Shown here one piece after another: positions 23,174 to 34,089 of a stretch of 64,000 nt of DNA. The stretch covers positions 1 through 64,000 of the forward strand of contig NZ_JAFCLS010000006.1 of assembly GCF_018131075.1 (NCBI RefSeq). Reading direction: 5' to 3'. This stretch comes from Bradyrhizobium sp. JYMT SZCCT0428 (lineage in GTDB: Bacteria; Pseudomonadota; Alphaproteobacteria; Rhizobiales; Xanthobacteraceae). Position 1 is the stretch's first letter, and the number at the start of each line of letters is the position of its first letter. Below the pieces are notes generated by a model. That model was not told where the DNA came from, did not search any database, and worked only from the letters and a program-made list of their open reading frames with translations. Both the position numbers and the translations under genes were made by a program.

Positions 23174-24094
23174 CTAAGCCCGCCGCAACAGGGCCGGCGC
23201 GCGCCGTTCCCGCTCCGCATCGAGCCGCGCCGCGAGCTCCGTGCTGACTTCCACCATCCGCAGCCGGACCTCGGCGCTGTCGATCAACCCGCTGCGCGCC
23301 AGCCAGTATTTTGCAGGCGCCGGACTGGGTTCGGCGAACAACAGCCGCGTCAGTTCGGAAATATTGTCCCAGCACGCCTGTGCGCCCTGATGGTCGCCCT
23401 GCTGCATCAGCGTCCGCACCGAGGCGAACGCTTCGGTCTCCAGATGCGCCGACAACAGGATGGCGCCGTCGGCGCCGTCGACCAGCGCCTCGTGATAGTG
23501 CGCGTCCTCGCCGGTCAGCACGCGAAAACCTTTCGGCCGCCGCGCCAGGAACTCGATCGACTGGGCGCGGTCGGCAGAGCAATCCTTGATGCCGACGATG
23601 TTGCGATGTGCGGCGAGCTGCAGCAGGGTCTCGTTGGTGAGATTGACCGCGGTGCGGTAGGGGATGTTGTAGAGCACGATCGGCCATGAGGCGTGATCGG
23701 CAAGCACCGTGAAATGCCGCAGCAGGCCGCGCTGCGACGGCCGCGTGTAATAGGGGCTGGCGATCAAATAGAAGTCGATCGGCCAGGCGGCGGTCTCGTC
23801 CAGCGTATCCAGCATCTTGCGCGTGCTGGCGCCGGACAGGCCGAGACAGATCGGGATATAGCGGCCGCTGGCCGAGATCTCGGCCCGGGTCACCGACACC
23901 AGCTGCTCGAGCTCGCCCTGGTCGAGAGTCATGCCCTCGCCCGAGGTGGCGGCGAGGATCAAGCCGTCGACCGGGCTGTTGACGTAGTGCCTGATCATGC
24001 GGCGCAGCGACGGCTCATCGAGTTCGCCGTTGCGAAACGGCGTAACGAGGGGCAGCCACAGGCCCTGTAATCGGTTTTGCGAATCGGTAGACAT
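23174..24094 (-). CDS. dihydrodipicolinate synthase family aldolase
   Basis: A 306-residue class I aldolase/lyase of the DapA/NanA fold. The Schiff-base lysine is in IVGIKDCSAD, and the active-site tyrosine in LYNIPYRT. The loop that binds pyruvate in DapA (TTGE) reads ATSGEG here, so the substrate may still be pyruvate plus an aldehyde. It could be lysine-pathway DapA or a relative acting on another substrate; the standard DapA GTTGE motif is changed. ATG 24094 has AAGGAGAT upstream. The leader carries opposed terminator-like hairpins. Confidence 0.8.
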   Translation of the reverse strand: MSTDSQNRLQGLWLPLVTPFRNGELDEPSLRRMIRHYVNSPVDGLILAATSGEGMTLDQGELEQLVSVTRAEISASGRYIPICLGLSGASTRKMLDTLDETAAWPIDFYLIASPYYTRPSQRGLLRHFTVLADHASWPIVLYNIPYRTAVNLTNETLLQLAAHRNIVGIKDCSADRAQSIEFLARRPKGFRVLTGEDAHYHEALVDGADGAILLSAHLETEAFASVRTLMQQGDHQGAQACWDNISELTRLLFAEPSPAPAKYWLARSGLIDSAEVRLRMVEVSTELAARLDAERERRAPALLRRA

Positions 24095-24137
24095 GGTTCC
24101 ATCTCCTTGAAGGCTGTTGCCGGAGACGGGACACATG

Positions 24138-24166
24138 AAAAAACCCCGTCCAGACGGCGGGGTTTC
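24138..24166 (-). terminator. terminator-like hairpin in the dapA-like leader
   Basis: On the minus strand AAACCCCG and CGGGGTTT-type arms are followed by T6, about 45 bases before the dapA-like start codon. It is either an attenuator of that gene or the end of a short upstream transcript. Confidence 0.6.
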
Positions 24167-24208
24167 GGGATCGGCTTGGCGGTTGATCTATCGCGCGCGT
24201 CGATCTCG

Positions 24209-24232
24209 GGTCCCCGGGTGGGGACCTTTTTT
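24209..24232 (+). terminator. plus-strand terminator hairpin without an obvious gene
   Basis: GGTCCCC-GGGT-GGGGACC followed by T6 is a good intrinsic terminator on the plus strand, but no plus-strand gene precedes it. It may end a small RNA, or its hairpin may serve as an alternative fold in the dapA-like leader on the other strand. The rest of 24095-24401 holds no convincing gene. Confidence 0.55.
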
Positions 24233-24401
24233 CGACGACAGAGCGGCGCACGAATTCGTGATCATGTCTCGATGATGATGGTGCAACGGCGCGCTGTCAA
24301 TCCGCGCACGCTCGATGACGTTTGTTTTACGGGAGAAGAAAAGAACTGGAGACGAAGAAGGCTCAGCTGAAATCCTCTGCGGACGAAGCGATCCGGAGAA
24401 G

Positions 24402-24430
24402 AAAAAAAGCCGGGCCCAAAAGAGCCCGGC
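24402..24430 (-). terminator. minus-strand intrinsic terminator
   Basis: On the minus strand GCCGGGCTC-TTTT-GGGCCCGGC is followed by seven T. It lies about 50 bases after the stop codon of the candidate small frame at 24479-24598 and shows that a transcript from the right ends here. Confidence 0.8.
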
Positions 24431-24478
24431 TTAAGGTATTGGCCACGTGAGGCCGACACAATCACCTTCCAAGAGGGA

Positions 24479-24598
24479 TTACTGAGCGCCCGCGCCACTG
24501 GAGGAGGGGGACATATGCGCGACACGATCGCTCAGCGTGTAAGCACTATGATCCCCATCTGCGGCTTGCGTAAACCGGTTAAGCCGCATGTCTGACAT
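24479..24598 (-). CDS. candidate 39-residue protein (or small RNA) before a terminator
   Basis: From ATG 24598 a frame reads MSDMRLNRFTQAADGDHSAY and ends in a Ser/Gly/Ala tail. A strong minus-strand terminator follows within 80 bases, which suggests a short independent transcript. No good Shine-Dalgarno is seen, so a small RNA is about equally likely. The neighbouring gene upstream is lsrB; in relatives LsrB/VtlR controls small RNAs, but a link here is speculation. Confidence 0.35.
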   Translation of the reverse strand: MSDMRLNRFTQAADGDHSAYTLSDRVAHMSPSSSGAGAQ

Positions 24599-24663
24599 GC
24601 GGAGACCGGGGGCTTTATAAGAGCCGCTAATCCGGAAGGCGGGAAACGTCAGCGGCTGCGAAA

Positions 24664-24745
24664 GCGTTTTCGAGCGAAGCCCGTGCCGCACGTGATGCGG
24701 AATCGATACCGGCTCGCATCAGGAAAACGCGTCAAAACAAGAATC
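24664..24745. repeat. palindromic repeat, family R (long copy)
   Basis: Outer stem GCGTTTTC/GAAAACGC as in the copies at 44654 and 45454, but the interior is longer and diverged, and it ends in GTCAAAACAAG. It lies downstream of lsrB. Confidence 0.65.
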
Positions 24746-24783
24746 TAGAGCTTCGGTTATGATTCAATAGCTCTAGATTCTTG
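24738..24783. terminator. perfect 15-base inverted repeat after lsrB
   Basis: CAAGAATCTAGAGCT and its exact complement are separated by 16 bases, starting 32 bases after the lsrB stop codon. On the minus strand it is followed by TTTTG. It overlaps the end of the family R repeat and probably works as a weak terminator or 3' stabiliser of lsrB mRNA. Confidence 0.55.
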
Positions 24784-24814
24784 CAGAACCGAAATTCCAG
24801 TCACAACCGAAATG

Positions 24815-25708
24815 CTAGGAGGGCCAGCGCTGCGCCTTGCTCACCACGAAATCGCGGAACACCTGCACCCGCGCCACCGTCTTCAACTCTTCGGGATACA
24901 CAAAATAGGTGTCGATCTGGATCGAGTCGGTCTCGCCGAACAGCTGCACCAGACGGTTGTTCTCCTCGACCAGGTAGTCGGGCAGGGCGGCGATGCCGAG
25001 CCCCTGCTGACAGGCCCTGACAAGACCCAGGATGTTGTTGACCTTGAAATAAGCCTCGCGCGGACCCGAGCCGTTGCGGCCGGCGTCAATCAGCCAGCTG
25101 CGGTTCTGCAGATGCGGCGGCACCTGGGAATCGCCGAGCATGATGATGCGATGCGAGTCGAGGTCGTCGAGGGTGCGCGGCGTGCCGAAGCGCTTGATGT
25201 ATTCCGGCGAGCAATAGGCGTGGAATCCGATCGAGAACAGCTTGCGCTGGATCAGATCCGGCTGGGTCGGCTTGCGGGTCCGGATCGCGACATCGGCCTC
25301 GCGCATCGACAGATCGAGATCCTCGTCGGTCACGATCAGCGAGATGCGGATATCCGGATAGAGGCTGGTGAACTCGTCCAGCCGCGGAATCAGCCAGTTG
25401 ATGCCGAGCGCCGGCGGCGTGGTGATCTTGAGGTCGCCTGACGGCCGCTCGCGGCTGTCGGTGAGCTTGGCGCGCGCCGCCTGCAGCTGCATGAACACGT
25501 CATGCGCGGTGCGGAACAGCAGGTCGCCCTGTTCGGTGAGGATCAGCCCGCGCGCATGGCGATGGAACAGCGACACCGCAAGCTCCTGCTCCAGCGCCGA
25601 GACTTGCCGCGATACCGCCGATTGCGAAAGCCCGAGTTGCTCGCCGGCATGGGTGAAGCTGCCCGCTTCCGCCGCCGCGTGAAACACCTTCAGCTTGTCC
25701 CAATCCAT
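24815..25708 (-). CDS. lsrB: LysR-type regulator LsrB (VtlR)
   Basis: A 297-residue LysR regulator with the N-terminal helix-turn-helix (FTHAGEQLGLSQSAVSRQVSALE) and an effector domain. The start MDWDKLKVFHAAAEAGSFTH and RHARGLILTEQG match LsrB of Sinorhizobium/Agrobacterium and VtlR of Brucella, which control redox, envelope and small RNA genes. The order lrp, trxB, lsrB is also the one I recall from Sinorhizobium. The start at 25708 follows the family; an ATG at 25744 overlaps the trxB stop as ATGA, which suggests translational coupling of the two genes. Confidence 0.88.
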   Translation of the reverse strand: MDWDKLKVFHAAAEAGSFTHAGEQLGLSQSAVSRQVSALEQELAVSLFHRHARGLILTEQGDLLFRTAHDVFMQLQAARAKLTDSRERPSGDLKITTPPALGINWLIPRLDEFTSLYPDIRISLIVTDEDLDLSMREADVAIRTRKPTQPDLIQRKLFSIGFHAYCSPEYIKRFGTPRTLDDLDSHRIIMLGDSQVPPHLQNRSWLIDAGRNGSGPREAYFKVNNILGLVRACQQGLGIAALPDYLVEENNRLVQLFGETDSIQIDTYFVYPEELKTVARVQVFRDFVVSKAQRWPS

Positions 25709-25740
25709 GTCCGTGAATCCGTCCCGTGTTCGACGCGTAA

Positions 25741-26706
25741 TCATTCTGCTGCCGCCCGATCACTCGCACGCAAGGCGAGAAAGCGCTCGGCCTCGAGGGC
25801 CGCCATACAACCAAGGCCGGCGGCCGTGACCGCCTGCCGCCAGGTTTCGTCCGCGACGTCGCCGGCGGCGAACAGGCCGGGCACCGACGTCGCCGTCGAG
25901 TTCGGCGCTACCTCGACATAGCCGGAGGGTTTCAGCTTGACCTGGCCGGCGACGAGTTCGGTTGCCGGCGCGTGGCCGATGGCGATGAAGACGCCGTCAG
26001 CGGGCACCTCCGTCAGCGCGCCGCTCTTGACGTTCTTCAGGCGCACATGGGTGACCTTGCCCGGATTGTCGGTGCCGCAGATTTCGTCGATTGCACTGTC
26101 CCAGACCACCTTGATCTTCGGGTTCTTGAACAGGCGATCCTGCAGGATGCGCTCGGCGCGGAAATGATCGCGGCGGTGCACGATGGTGACTTGCGAGGCG
26201 AAGTTGGTGAGGAACAGCGCTTCCTCGACCGCGGTGTTGCCGCCGCCGACCACCATGACTTCCTTGCCGCGATAGAAGAAGCCGTCGCAGGTCGCGCAGG
26301 CCGAAACGCCAAAGCCCTTGAACTTCTCTTCCGATGGCATGCCGAGCCAGCGCGCCTGCGCGCCGGTGGCAAGGATCACGGTTTCGGCGAGATAGACATC
26401 GCCGCTGTCGCAGGTCAGGCGGAACGGCCGCTGCGTGGTGTCGAGTTTGGTGACGAGATCGGTGACGAGCTTGGTGCCGACATGGGCCGCCTGTTTTTCC
26501 ATCTGCTCCATCAGCCAAGGACCCTGGATGACATCCGCAAAGCCCGGATAGTTTTCCACGTCGGTGGTGATGGTGAGCTGGCCGCCGGGCTGGATGCCCT
26601 GGATCAGCACCGGCTCAAGCATCGCCCGCGCGGCGTAGATCGCTGCGGTGTACCCGGCGGGGCCGGAACCGATAATGACGACCTTGGCATGGATAGGCGC
26701 GGGCAT
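25741..26706 (-). CDS. trxB: thioredoxin-disulfide reductase
   Basis: A 321-residue FAD enzyme that passes electrons from NADPH to thioredoxin. It has the N-terminal FAD motif IIGSGPAGYTAAIYAA, the redox-active CATC in SACATCDGFF, the NADPH motif VVGGGNTAVEEALFL with HRRDHFRAE, and the C-terminal FAD motif GLFAAGDVAD. The length is normal. lsrB overlaps its stop codon, so the two are co-transcribed; lrp is divergent. LsrB is known to respond to oxidative stress in rhizobia, which fits the pairing. Confidence 0.97.
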   Translation of the reverse strand: MPAPIHAKVVIIGSGPAGYTAAIYAARAMLEPVLIQGIQPGGQLTITTDVENYPGFADVIQGPWLMEQMEKQAAHVGTKLVTDLVTKLDTTQRPFRLTCDSGDVYLAETVILATGAQARWLGMPSEEKFKGFGVSACATCDGFFYRGKEVMVVGGGNTAVEEALFLTNFASQVTIVHRRDHFRAERILQDRLFKNPKIKVVWDSAIDEICGTDNPGKVTHVRLKNVKSGALTEVPADGVFIAIGHAPATELVAGQVKLKPSGYVEVAPNSTATSVPGLFAAGDVADETWRQAVTAAGLGCMAALEAERFLALRASDRAAAE

Positions 26707-27016
26707 CGGCGATTCCCTCTCTTTGGAGGATTTTGATGAGGACTTGTGCGGGAAGCGCCGGGAAATGCGTCGCGCGGCGCTAAAAGTGTCAAATCCAAGT
26801 CTATGATATCTGGGTAGCCATGCAAGATTTGCAATTCAAATAAGCGAATTTTCCCCGGAACTGCGGTATTTTCTCCCGATTCACGCAAAATGGCGCAGTG
26901 CACGCGCAATAAAATTGCGCAATCGATGGCAGCTGCGCTAAGAGTGTTGCCGGCAAACACCTTCCCAAGCCCAGCCAGCCCCAAAGAACCTAGGGAACCC
27001 AAAGGAACCGGACCGC
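26707..27016. promoter_or_regulatory. divergent trxB/lrp promoter region
   Basis: About 310 bases without a gene, AT-richer in the middle (26820-26930). It must carry the trxB and lrp promoters. I see no clear operator; AsnC/Lrp proteins often bind such divergent regions. Confidence 0.5.
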
Positions 27017-27496
27017 GTGTCGAAGAATCTCGACGAAATCGACCTTAGAATTCTTTCCGAAATCCAGGCCGATGGCCGAATCACCAACGTCGAACTGGCC
27101 AAACGGGTCGGCATCTCGCCGCCGCCTTGCCTGCGCCGGGTCAGGACGCTGGAGGAAGAAGGCTACATCCAGGGCTACCGCGGCATGCTGGATCCGCGCC
27201 GGCTCGGCTTCGACGTCACCGTGTTTGCCTCCGTGCACCTGTCGAGCCAGGCCGAAGCGGACTTGCGCGCCTTCGAGGAATTTGTCCGCGCCGAGCCCCT
27301 GGTGCGCGAATGCTGGATGCTGTCGGGGGAGGTCGATTTCATCCTGAAATGCGTGGCGCCCGACATGGCGACGTTCCAGGATTTCGTCACCCATCTGACG
27401 TCGGCGCCCCATGTGCGCAATGTCAGGACGTCGCTGGTGCTGCACAATTCGAAATACGAGGCGGCGGTGCCGCTCGATTTGAAGGTGACGGGATAA
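27017..27496 (+). CDS. lrp: Lrp/AsnC family regulator
   Basis: A 159-residue regulator with an N-terminal winged helix (LDEIDLRILSEIQADGRITNVELAKRVGISPPPCLRRVRTLEEEGYI) and a C-terminal RAM/ligand domain (SGEVDFILKCVAPDM). Such proteins bind amino acids and form octamers on DNA. GTG 27017 has AAGGAA about eight bases upstream. It is divergent from trxB-lsrB, an order kept in other Rhizobiales. The last codons lie in a perfect nine-base palindrome (GGATAACGC/GCGTTATCC) that begins a repeat. Confidence 0.88.
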   Translation: MSKNLDEIDLRILSEIQADGRITNVELAKRVGISPPPCLRRVRTLEEEGYIQGYRGMLDPRRLGFDVTVFASVHLSSQAEADLRAFEEFVRAEPLVRECWMLSGEVDFILKCVAPDMATFQDFVTHLTSAPHVRNVRTSLVLHNSKYEAAVPLDLKVTG

Positions 27497-28767: not shown

Positions 28768-29244
28768 CTAGCGCCACTCGACCTTGGTGATCTCGTAGGC
28801 CTTGGCGCCGCCGGGCGCCATGACCTCGACGGTGGTGCCCTTTTTCTTGCCGATCAACGCGCGGGCCAGCGGCGAGGTGATGGAGATGCGGCCCTTCTTG
28901 GCATCGGCCTCCGGCTCGCCGACGATCTGCCACACCGCTTTCTTCTCGGTGTCCTCGTCGACCAGCGTGACGGTGGCGCCGAACATGATGGTGTCGCCGG
29001 AGAGCTTTGAAATGTCGATGATGTCGGCGCGCGCGAGCTTGTCTTCGATCTCGGCGATGCGGCCTTCATTATGCGACTGCTCTTCCTTGGCGGCGTGATA
29101 TTCCGCGTTCTCCGAAAGGTCGCCATGCGAGCGCGCCTCGGCGATGTGCTCGATGATGCGCGGCCGGTCTTCCGACTGGCGCTTCTTCAACTCGACCTCG
29201 AGGGCGGCATACCCGCCGGCGGTCATCGGAACCTTTTCCATCAT
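28768..29244 (-). CDS. greA: transcription elongation factor GreA
   Basis: A 158-residue factor of the usual length. The N-terminal coiled coil ([42 protein letters not shown]) carries the acidic tip DLSENAEY that enters the RNA polymerase channel, and the C-terminal FKBP-like domain ends [23 protein letters not shown]. It stimulates cleavage of backtracked RNA. ATG 29244 (MMEKVPMT) has AAGGACGG upstream. It follows carB on the same strand, and is probably expressed separately or by read-through. Confidence 0.97.
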
Positions 29245-29465: not shown

Positions 29466-32930
<3,465 letters not shown>

Positions 32931-33068
32931 CAGGTCTCGCGGACTGGAATTTTGGCACAAAAAAAGGGCGCGCATGCTGCGCGTCCCCTAAGCCAAGAGC
33001 GCGGGTTACCCTCGCGCGCGGGTGGTCTTTAGACCAGATTCCGCACCCGCGAAACCCCCAAAAACGGG
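32931..33068 (-). promoter_or_regulatory. structured carB leader (candidate cis-regulatory RNA)
   Basis: Read on the minus strand, the motif at 33046-33068 (containing CGTTTTTGGGGGT, shared with carA) comes first. A stem CGCGGGTG/CACCCGCG encloses a GGTCT-AA-AGACC hairpin, another hairpin GCGCGAGGG/CCCGCGC follows, and then a strong intrinsic terminator at 32959-32987 about 28 bases before carB. The CGCGGG strand can pair either with CCCG of the motif or with CACCCGCG, so two exclusive folds are possible. This layout is what an attenuator or riboswitch would show. It is a reading of sequence only. Confidence 0.5.
32959..32987 (-). terminator. intrinsic terminator in the carB leader
   Basis: On the minus strand GGG-A-CGCGC-AGCAU-GCGCG-CCC is followed by seven U, ending 28 bases before the carB ATG. 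It could end transcripts starting at the tRNA-like element, or attenuate carB. Confidence 0.85.
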
Positions 33069-33118
33069 CCATCAACCGGCATTTTGCGGGAATTTGGCTG
33101 CGGCTTGGTGTGAGGGGG

Positions 33119-33217
33119 AAGGCTGGCTGAGGCCCGTCTTCGCCCTTCGGGCTACGCCGCGGCAGCCTTCGCTACGACGGGGCTTGCCGAGCCGTAGCTT
33201 GCGCAGCAAGCGAAGGC
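33119..33217. repeat. inverted repeat between the carB leader and the tRNA-like element
   Basis: AGCCTTCGCT at 33171 and AGCGAAGGCT at 33209 are inverted around a GCTTGCC...GCGCAGC core, and a further inverted pair (CCCTTCGGGC) lies to the left. This is a common style of Bradyrhizobium intergenic repeat. No gene. Confidence 0.55.
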
Positions 33218-33293
33218 TGGAGGCCCGGCCTGGATTTGAACCAGGATAAAGAACGATGCACCGTTCTCGCGTTGTCGCTTCCGCCACCGGGCC
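33218..33293 (-). tRNA. tRNA-like element with atypical anticodon arm
   Basis: On the minus strand a 76-base element ends in CCA. The acceptor (GGCCCGG/CCGGGCC) and T arm (CCTGG-TTCAAAT-CCAGG) are perfect, U8 is present, and the D arm closes with GCG/CGC but its loop lacks the G18-G19 pair. The anticodon stem is AGAAC/GTTCT around an eight-base loop (GGTGCATC), with a four-base variable region. A normal tRNA would have a seven-base loop and U33. It may be a decayed tRNA, a tRNA-like regulatory RNA, or a tRNA with an expanded loop; I cannot assign an amino acid. Confidence 0.5.
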
Positions 33294-33387
33294 AAGGCGA
33301 TCATTACCGATCACGGGCCGGTGAGCCATGTTTACCTTTGATTAACCCTAACCGGCTGGCAATCGCGAAAAACCGCTTCAAAAGGCG

Positions 33388-34089
33388 CTATCGCGCCATG
33401 GGATGGTGCGCCACGAAGGTCATCCGCCAGGGATTATGGCCGATATTGTCGGGGGCGCGCGAAGCGGCGAAGCCGGCGCGGCCGAGTTTTTCGATCATCT
33501 CGCTTTCGCTGTAGCGTTGCAGGCCGACGCGGGTGCGCAATTGCCGGTAGTCCGACAGCGCGGTCGAGGCGAGGCCGTAGAGCGCGTCCGTCAGGAAGCC
33601 GTGGGTGCTTGCGAATCTCAACAGCGCCAGCACGTCTCGCCCCATGCCGACCTCGGGCCGCAGGATATCGCCCAGCACCAGCCGCCCGCTCGGCTTCAGC
33701 AGCCGGCGAATAACCGCGAATGCGGAATCCAGCTCTTGCGGCGTCATGTATTGCGCCACCGAGTTCATGACGACGAGATCGACCGAGTGCGCCTCCATAC
33801 TCCGGAGCTCATCGAGCGAACGGACGCGGATTTTGGTGTTCGGCGCAAAGCGCGCGATCAGCCGGCCGCGCACGCCGGGGGCGGGTTCGGCGAGATAGAG
33901 TTTTGCGCAGGCGTCCGCCACCCTGGCCGCCGACAGCGCCTCGCCGCAGGCATAGTCCAGCACGACGGCGTCAGGCGATGAGATGTAGCCGATGATGTCG
34001 CGCGCGATGATCTGGAAATGCAGGTCCCGGTGCAGCTTGCTCGCATAGATCGTATGCGTGGAATCGTAATAGTCGATCCATTCGTCCAT
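33388..34089 (-). CDS. SAM-dependent methyltransferase
   Basis: A 233-residue class I methyltransferase: SAM motif I VVLDYACGEALSAARVAD, the acidic end of strand 2 (LYLAEPAPGVR), motif IV SVDLVVMNSVAQYMTPQEL, and a later LLKPSGRLVLGDIL. The substrate is unknown. ATG 34089 (MDEWIDYYDST) is preferred to 34311 because the fold starts there and the upstream residues look like untranslated sequence. It is divergent from dps; the 125 bases between them hold both promoters. Confidence 0.8.
   Translation of the reverse strand: MDEWIDYYDSTHTIYASKLHRDLHFQIIARDIIGYISSPDAVVLDYACGEALSAARVADACAKLYLAEPAPGVRGRLIARFAPNTKIRVRSLDELRSMEAHSVDLVVMNSVAQYMTPQELDSAFAVIRRLLKPSGRLVLGDILRPEVGMGRDVLALLRFASTHGFLTDALYGLASTALSDYRQLRTRVGLQRYSESEMIEKLGRAGFAASRAPDNIGHNPWRMTFVAHHPMAR

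Follow-up and report, generated by a model that had tools for sequence, protein, structure and literature searches.

Carbamoyl-phosphate synthase stands at the entry shared by arginine and pyrimidine synthesis, and the gene for its large subunit is preceded, in Bradyrhizobium sp. JYMT SZCCT0428, by what appears to be a terminator. The stretch of DNA analysed here, hereafter the window, comprises 64,000 nucleotides, and the gene is an open reading frame which, from knowledge of its family, we take to be carB (Table 1). The reading put forward here, to which a probability of roughly 0.6 is given, is that a predicted intrinsic terminator would end many transcripts some 60-65 nt after their likely start, and that carB expression would depend on transcripts reading through it, to an extent set by the polymerase. 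As the best explanation of the hairpin, its conservation, a promoter-like box at fixed spacing and a search of the leaders that yielded no aptamer, leader peptide or antiterminator, it is proposed that transcription would start at this box upstream of the hairpin and that the hairpin with its U7 tract would terminate many transcripts. A preceding hairpin, P1, would hold its GC-rich 5' strand away from the terminator arm, which would make termination more likely, and read-through would depend, somewhat as proposed for the GraL leader, on the polymerase (its supply of nucleotides, or an elongation factor such as GreA) and not on an RNA switch. If the terminator works in this manner, the shared entry enzyme of both pathways would be under early-termination control across a large family and in parts of the order. 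As the RNA has yielded no sensor, this would be a compact case in which to ask how terminators lacking an aptamer or leader peptide are regulated.

Table 1. Features at and around carB, in window coordinates
Feature	Positions	Strand	Basis
greA-like elongation factor gene (presumed), 224 nt after carB	28768..29241	-	ORF
carB (presumed), carbamoyl-phosphate synthase large subunit, start MPKRTDIS	29466..32930	-	ORF; start aligned by tblastn in relatives
GUGCC right after the U-run	32954..32958	-	letters in 73 sequences
U7 tract of the terminator	32959..32965	-	run length across 73 sequences
Terminator hairpin GGG-A-CGCGC/AGCAU/GCGCG-CCC	32966..32987	-	letters, folding, family conservation
P1, GC-rich leader hairpin before the terminator	32993..33021	-	predicted structure
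Predicted transcription start region	33020..33023	-	distance of 5-8 nt past the -10 element
Predicted extended -10 element TGG-TCTAAA	33028..33036	-	information content, 62 sequences
Predicted -35 element GTTTC (family consensus CTTYC)	33051..33055	-	spacing kept in leaders
tRNA-Cys-like RNA, ~180 nt upstream of the predicted carB promoter	33218..33293	-	tRNA scan, covariation

A conserved hairpin in front of carB

A sequence-only reading had described a hairpin with seven U 28 bases before carB, and this is borne out at 32987-32959 of the minus strand, where the bulged A, the loop AGCAU and the U7 tract are all present and 28 nt lie between the terminator and the carB ATG at 32930. Folding gives the hairpin -14.0 kcal/mol (z -2.83), and its pattern of arms plus T-run has a single occurrence in the 9.24-Mb genome. 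The carB frame is open back to an in-frame ATG within the hairpin loop (32975, minus strand), which is unlikely to be the carB start because it is absent in most relatives.

The family sample consisted of 80 genomes, own genome included, all of which match the carB-region query, and upstream regions were taken from 70 of them (30 + 40 loci; 10 not included). Among named carB records, those nearest to the window's gene belong to Bradyrhizobium. A hairpin with dG <= -8 ending at a T-run was found in the last 260 nt before carB in 63 of the 70, the exceptions being four without a hairpin match (L121, L134, L145, L146) and three with weak ones (L029, L136, L142); in L003 the terminator is present, though the best-scoring hairpin is a different one. 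When only the last 160 nt are considered the figure is 59/70, against 3/70 for the antisense strand, 12/700 for mononucleotide shuffles and 3/69 for more distal DNA, and the 260 nt upstream of carA, used as a further control, gave a hairpin with a T-run in 1/21, that one being 205 nt away. The motif filter was passed by 65 of the 70 family regions, and these together with eight named relatives, which include Bradyrhizobium sp. CSA112, B. hipponense and Pseudolabrys, form a set of 73 sequences. The filter left L116, L121, L134, L145, L146 and L046 outside this set, L116 and L046 possessing a different hairpin with U7; L045 and L140 are apparently one species. Across the 73 sequences the U-run measures 7 nt in 61, 6 in five, 8 in four and 5 in three, and judging from these alignments the terminator is nearly frozen in sequence within the family. 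Its near-invariance, together with the single occurrence of the arms-plus-T pattern in the genome, indicates that the hairpin is not a chance match.

Covariation, which the sequence-only reading had proposed as a check, does not rise above shuffles in the family hairpin alignment (41 of 62 distinct hairpins). Two-sided changes in three pairs and five cells were matched by 118/500 and 86/500 shuffles, and the covariation score of 0.110, compared with 0.097 in shuffles, was reached by 30/500. This follows from arms that are self-complementary, hardly vary and shift in register: 88.1% of the cells are paired, and after the alignment is slid by +2 columns 82.3% still pair. The evidence for the hairpin therefore comes from its invariance, from register-shifted variants (L112, L119, L118, L028) and from the hairpins of other families.

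Directly 3' of the U-run the letters GTG occur in 47/73 sequences, GCG in 10/73 and ATG in 8/73, so that G[T/C]G is kept in 57/73, and similar letters stand behind the T-run in some other families. An outer helix between the GUGCC after the U-run and the bases before the hairpin was considered for the 73 sequences and rejected, since own partners gave -8.99 and swapped ones -8.80 kcal/mol; with the upstream strand shuffled the value was -8.21 kcal/mol. The bases flanking the terminator and U-run can pair and enclose the U-run in L038, L043, L044, L211, L217, L231 and L236, and a larger enclosing hairpin is thus predicted for some other families only, while in the family of the window it is not supported.

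A promoter-like box at fixed spacing

The DNA upstream of the hairpin in the 73 leaders was searched for CTTYC plus TGGTCTAAG, with a score of at least 11 of 14. Such a pair is present in 70/73 leaders, compared with 12/365 in shuffled DNA, and the spacing between the -35 element and TGGTCTARR is exactly 14 nt in 62/73. Over 62 sequences the -10 positions carry 0.9-2.0 bits (seven of nine at 1.5-2.0) and CTTYC 1.0-2.0, while the 14 spacer positions are mostly below 1.2 bits with one at 1.8, a profile as in a bipartite promoter. In its own genome CTTYC-N14-TGGTCTARR has no match, as the window has GTTTC. It is predicted that transcription starts at the GTTTC-N14-TGG-TCTAAA box, probably 5-8 nt after TGGTCTAA.

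A methyltransferase-like gene and the tRNA-like RNA lie upstream of carB on the same strand, and it may be asked whether the hairpin ends a transcript coming from these genes, with the carB promoter placed between hairpin and ATG. Such an arrangement is scarcely probable, given that the fixed-spacing promoter box lies between those genes and the hairpin, that in 64/73 sequences no more than 22-54 nt separate the start of the U-run from the ATG, and that a -10-like box just before the carB ATG occurs in only 2/70. On the other hand, a predicted promoter, a short RNA and a terminator make up a complete small-RNA unit, so that the leader of about 65 nt could be mainly a trans-acting small RNA, the terminator before carB being incidental. 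Of the explanations weighed here this is given the least credence, because the sequence of the RNA body is unconserved whereas the terminator is conserved.

Leader folding and the search for a sensor

An attenuator with a strong terminator, as first suggested from the letters alone, is the part of the earlier model that has gained support, from the conservation of the hairpin, from its place after the promoter box and from the terminator-like hairpins of some other families; the carB leader is thus likely to be an attenuator, its promoter being predicted. A riboswitch or attenuator with two exclusive folds that senses a ligand such as arginine or pyrimidine is, by comparison, very unlikely, even though the window does contain long GC-rich self-complementary stretches. 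The leaders, measured from the -10 element to the U-run, range from 53 to 168 nt (70 leaders with a promoter), and many members have a GCGC-rich P1 hairpin; in the family comparison no shared core was seen beyond the terminator and P1, and a conserved aptamer, a leader peptide and an antiterminator were looked for in the family leaders without any being found. Rfam release 15 returned a single tRNA for the whole window at the gathering score, and for 32900-33400 up to E 5 three matches, all far below that score.

Leader folding and start codons were analysed in 62 of the 73 leaders (promoter spacing 13-15, leader <= 115 nt), a set of related sequences whose p-values are not independent. These leaders fold better than their own shuffles (mean z -0.91), and with the terminator's 5' arm they pair more weakly than shuffles do (mean z +0.44), which is the opposite of what an evolved antiterminator would give. 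For the predicted transcript of the window alone (33022-32959) z is -1.59. No start codon of the ATG or GTG type, TTG not being counted, precedes the hairpin in 42 of the 62 leaders.

The upstream arms of the two-fold model fare no better, since they lie in the fixed-spacing predicted promoter, where they read as DNA elements and are not conserved as a fold. The GGTCT-AA-AGACC hairpin described there holds the -10 element, and over 62 genomes no conservation of its pairing is seen. The full 138 nt do fold well (z -4.39) but include the predicted promoter, and the pairings read there are present as letters. Between the spacer strand and the strand after the -10 element, pairing is strong in the window itself (-16.6 kcal/mol); over 62 genomes it amounts to -9.01 kcal/mol with the own partner and -8.92 with swapped partners (p 0.94). 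Thus, when relatives were compared, the terminator was found to be kept and the upstream pairing was not.

A motif shared by the car genes had also been part of the earlier model. In this genome TTTTTNGGGGTTY is found at two places only, carA and carB, from which the pattern had itself been derived, and the carA box TTTTTGGGGGTT is common only to carB in this genome. As a conserved operator the motif was rejected, because TTTTNGGGGTTYC is scattered over 40/120 genomes of the order and two relatives of the same genus (L246, L247) lack the motif upstream of carA. A -10-like TATGTA box stands about 10 nt before the ATG of carA (44536, minus strand), so that carA looks nearly leaderless.

Since the leaders yielded neither a sensor nor an aptamer, leader peptide or antiterminator, a fixed throttle has to be considered, in which the terminator would reduce what a strong promoter delivers by an unchanging factor, without responding to any signal. 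The near-constant length of the U-run is as expected under selection for one efficiency. A weaker promoter would serve equally, however, and one terminator sequence kept over many genera would be hard to explain in this way, and for these reasons a throttle is considered unlikely and termination with polymerase-set read-through is preferred.

Terminators before carB in other families of the order

Outside the family the order was represented by 116 genomes, and carB upstream DNA was obtained from 86 of these (26 + 60 loci; 30 not included). In 24/86 the last 260 nt contain a hairpin with T-run at -8 kcal/mol or better. In 18/86, from eight families, it lies <= 80 nt from the ATG and after a promoter-like box, as judged by eye; in the remaining six of the 24 the hairpin is further off or before the promoter. 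In L219 the promoter-like box follows the hairpin, and this genome is therefore left out of the 18. By the same test 68/86 genomes have no such terminator, which indicates that carB can do without it.

Most of the stems outside the family are unrelated in sequence to the family type: that of L162 is GAGGCTGG../CCGGCCTC, those of L212, L236 and L211 are GCCCAG../CTGGGC, GCCGCGG/CCGCGGC and CGGGCGG/CCGCCCG, and the named records Ensifer sesbaniae (L038) and Shinella (L043) have CCGGCC-type hairpins, while the stem of L163 resembles the family type. In these predicted terminators the position is kept and the sequence differs in some other families.

Known leaders and a possible link to GreA

The literature search revealed no alphaproteobacterial carB leader terminator among the matches listed, which were mostly open-access main texts. 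Enterobacterial pyrBI, which belongs to the same pathway and likewise has a leader terminator, couples termination to a translated leader peptide; of the 62 carB leaders, 42 are without an ATG or GTG. Naville and Gautheret (2010) catalogued premature-terminator attenuators whose terminator reads in the direction of the gene and lies no more than 300 nt from its start codon, a layout that the carB terminator fits; their main text, which names neither carB nor Bradyrhizobium, notes that certain attenuators can do without a stable alternative pairing (PMC2965389). In SAM-II and other alphaproteobacterial leaders, promoter elements and a terminator have been reported ahead of a biosynthetic gene; a conserved aptamer belongs to SAM-II, whereas none was found in the carB leader, and the main text of that work does not mention carB (PMC1273637). 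The main text of a B. japonicum start-site paper does not name carB either (PMC4842269).

The nearest analogue appears to be E. coli GraL, the greA leader, which among the papers cited here is the main described example of a regulated terminator lacking an aptamer or leader peptide. In the GraL study GreA was found to act through the leader to reduce expression of greA in vivo, an effect that did not depend on the promoter; sequences upstream of and within the hairpin matter, and the authors consider the element hard to class as attenuator or riboswitch (PMC6829880). As described there, GraL and the carB leader both have an intrinsic terminator, predicted in the case of carB, between promoter and gene, the likeness being one of layout; GraL is very short, with 19 nt before the hairpin, compared with 53-168 nt from -10 element to U-run here. 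An antiterminator has been predicted for enterobacterial greA leaders in the text of PMC2965389, and none was found in carB leaders. On that description of GraL, greA is involved at both loci, as the leader's own and directly following gene in E. coli and, here, as the gene after carB, which itself comes first.

The downstream open reading frame is presumed to be greA-like from knowledge of its family. It invites the bolder reading that GreA or nucleotide supply sets read-through in a carB-greA unit of the order, as a second, independent GraL-type system, and if this were true the synthesis of arginine and pyrimidine precursors would be tied to the quality of elongation through a frozen terminator. 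This extension, made by analogy, is regarded as quite improbable. A greA-like gene in the same direction lies 3.3-4.2 kb past the carB start in 81/97 genomes compared (97 of 120; the other 23 left out) and follows carB in 14/18 genomes with a terminator outside the family, which is not above the general rate, and greA is not adjacent to carB in 3/3 f21 genomes having the carB terminator; the link to GreA thus does not track the terminator.

A tRNA-Cys-like RNA upstream of carB

The tRNA-Cys-like RNA of the window has U73, an encoded CCA and GCA in its loop, and cannot be typed by ARAGORN; a canonical tRNA-Cys is present elsewhere in the genome. Such an RNA was called upstream of carB in 26/44 relatives scanned, at a distance from carB that varies from about 0.2 to 2 kb. 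An alignment of 23 copies, consisting of 22 of the 26 and the window (L015, L030, L031 and L036 left out), shows an anticodon stem of six pairs, all of them changed on both sides, and the whole structure has 28 two-sided cells compared with 6.8 in shuffles, none of 500 reaching as many. As read by eye, 17/23 copies have the 6-nt loop GUGCAW, which is GUGCAU in the window, and two are without the sixth pair. Decoding in the usual way is unlikely for this RNA and a non-translational role is possible; among the matches listed, including PMC7609411, no description of it was found. Elsewhere in the sample, contig C1 of genome G000 contains 17 tRNA-family matches within 3.4 kb (24022-27405; L297).

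tRNA arrays like that at L297 are of a kind known from mobile elements.
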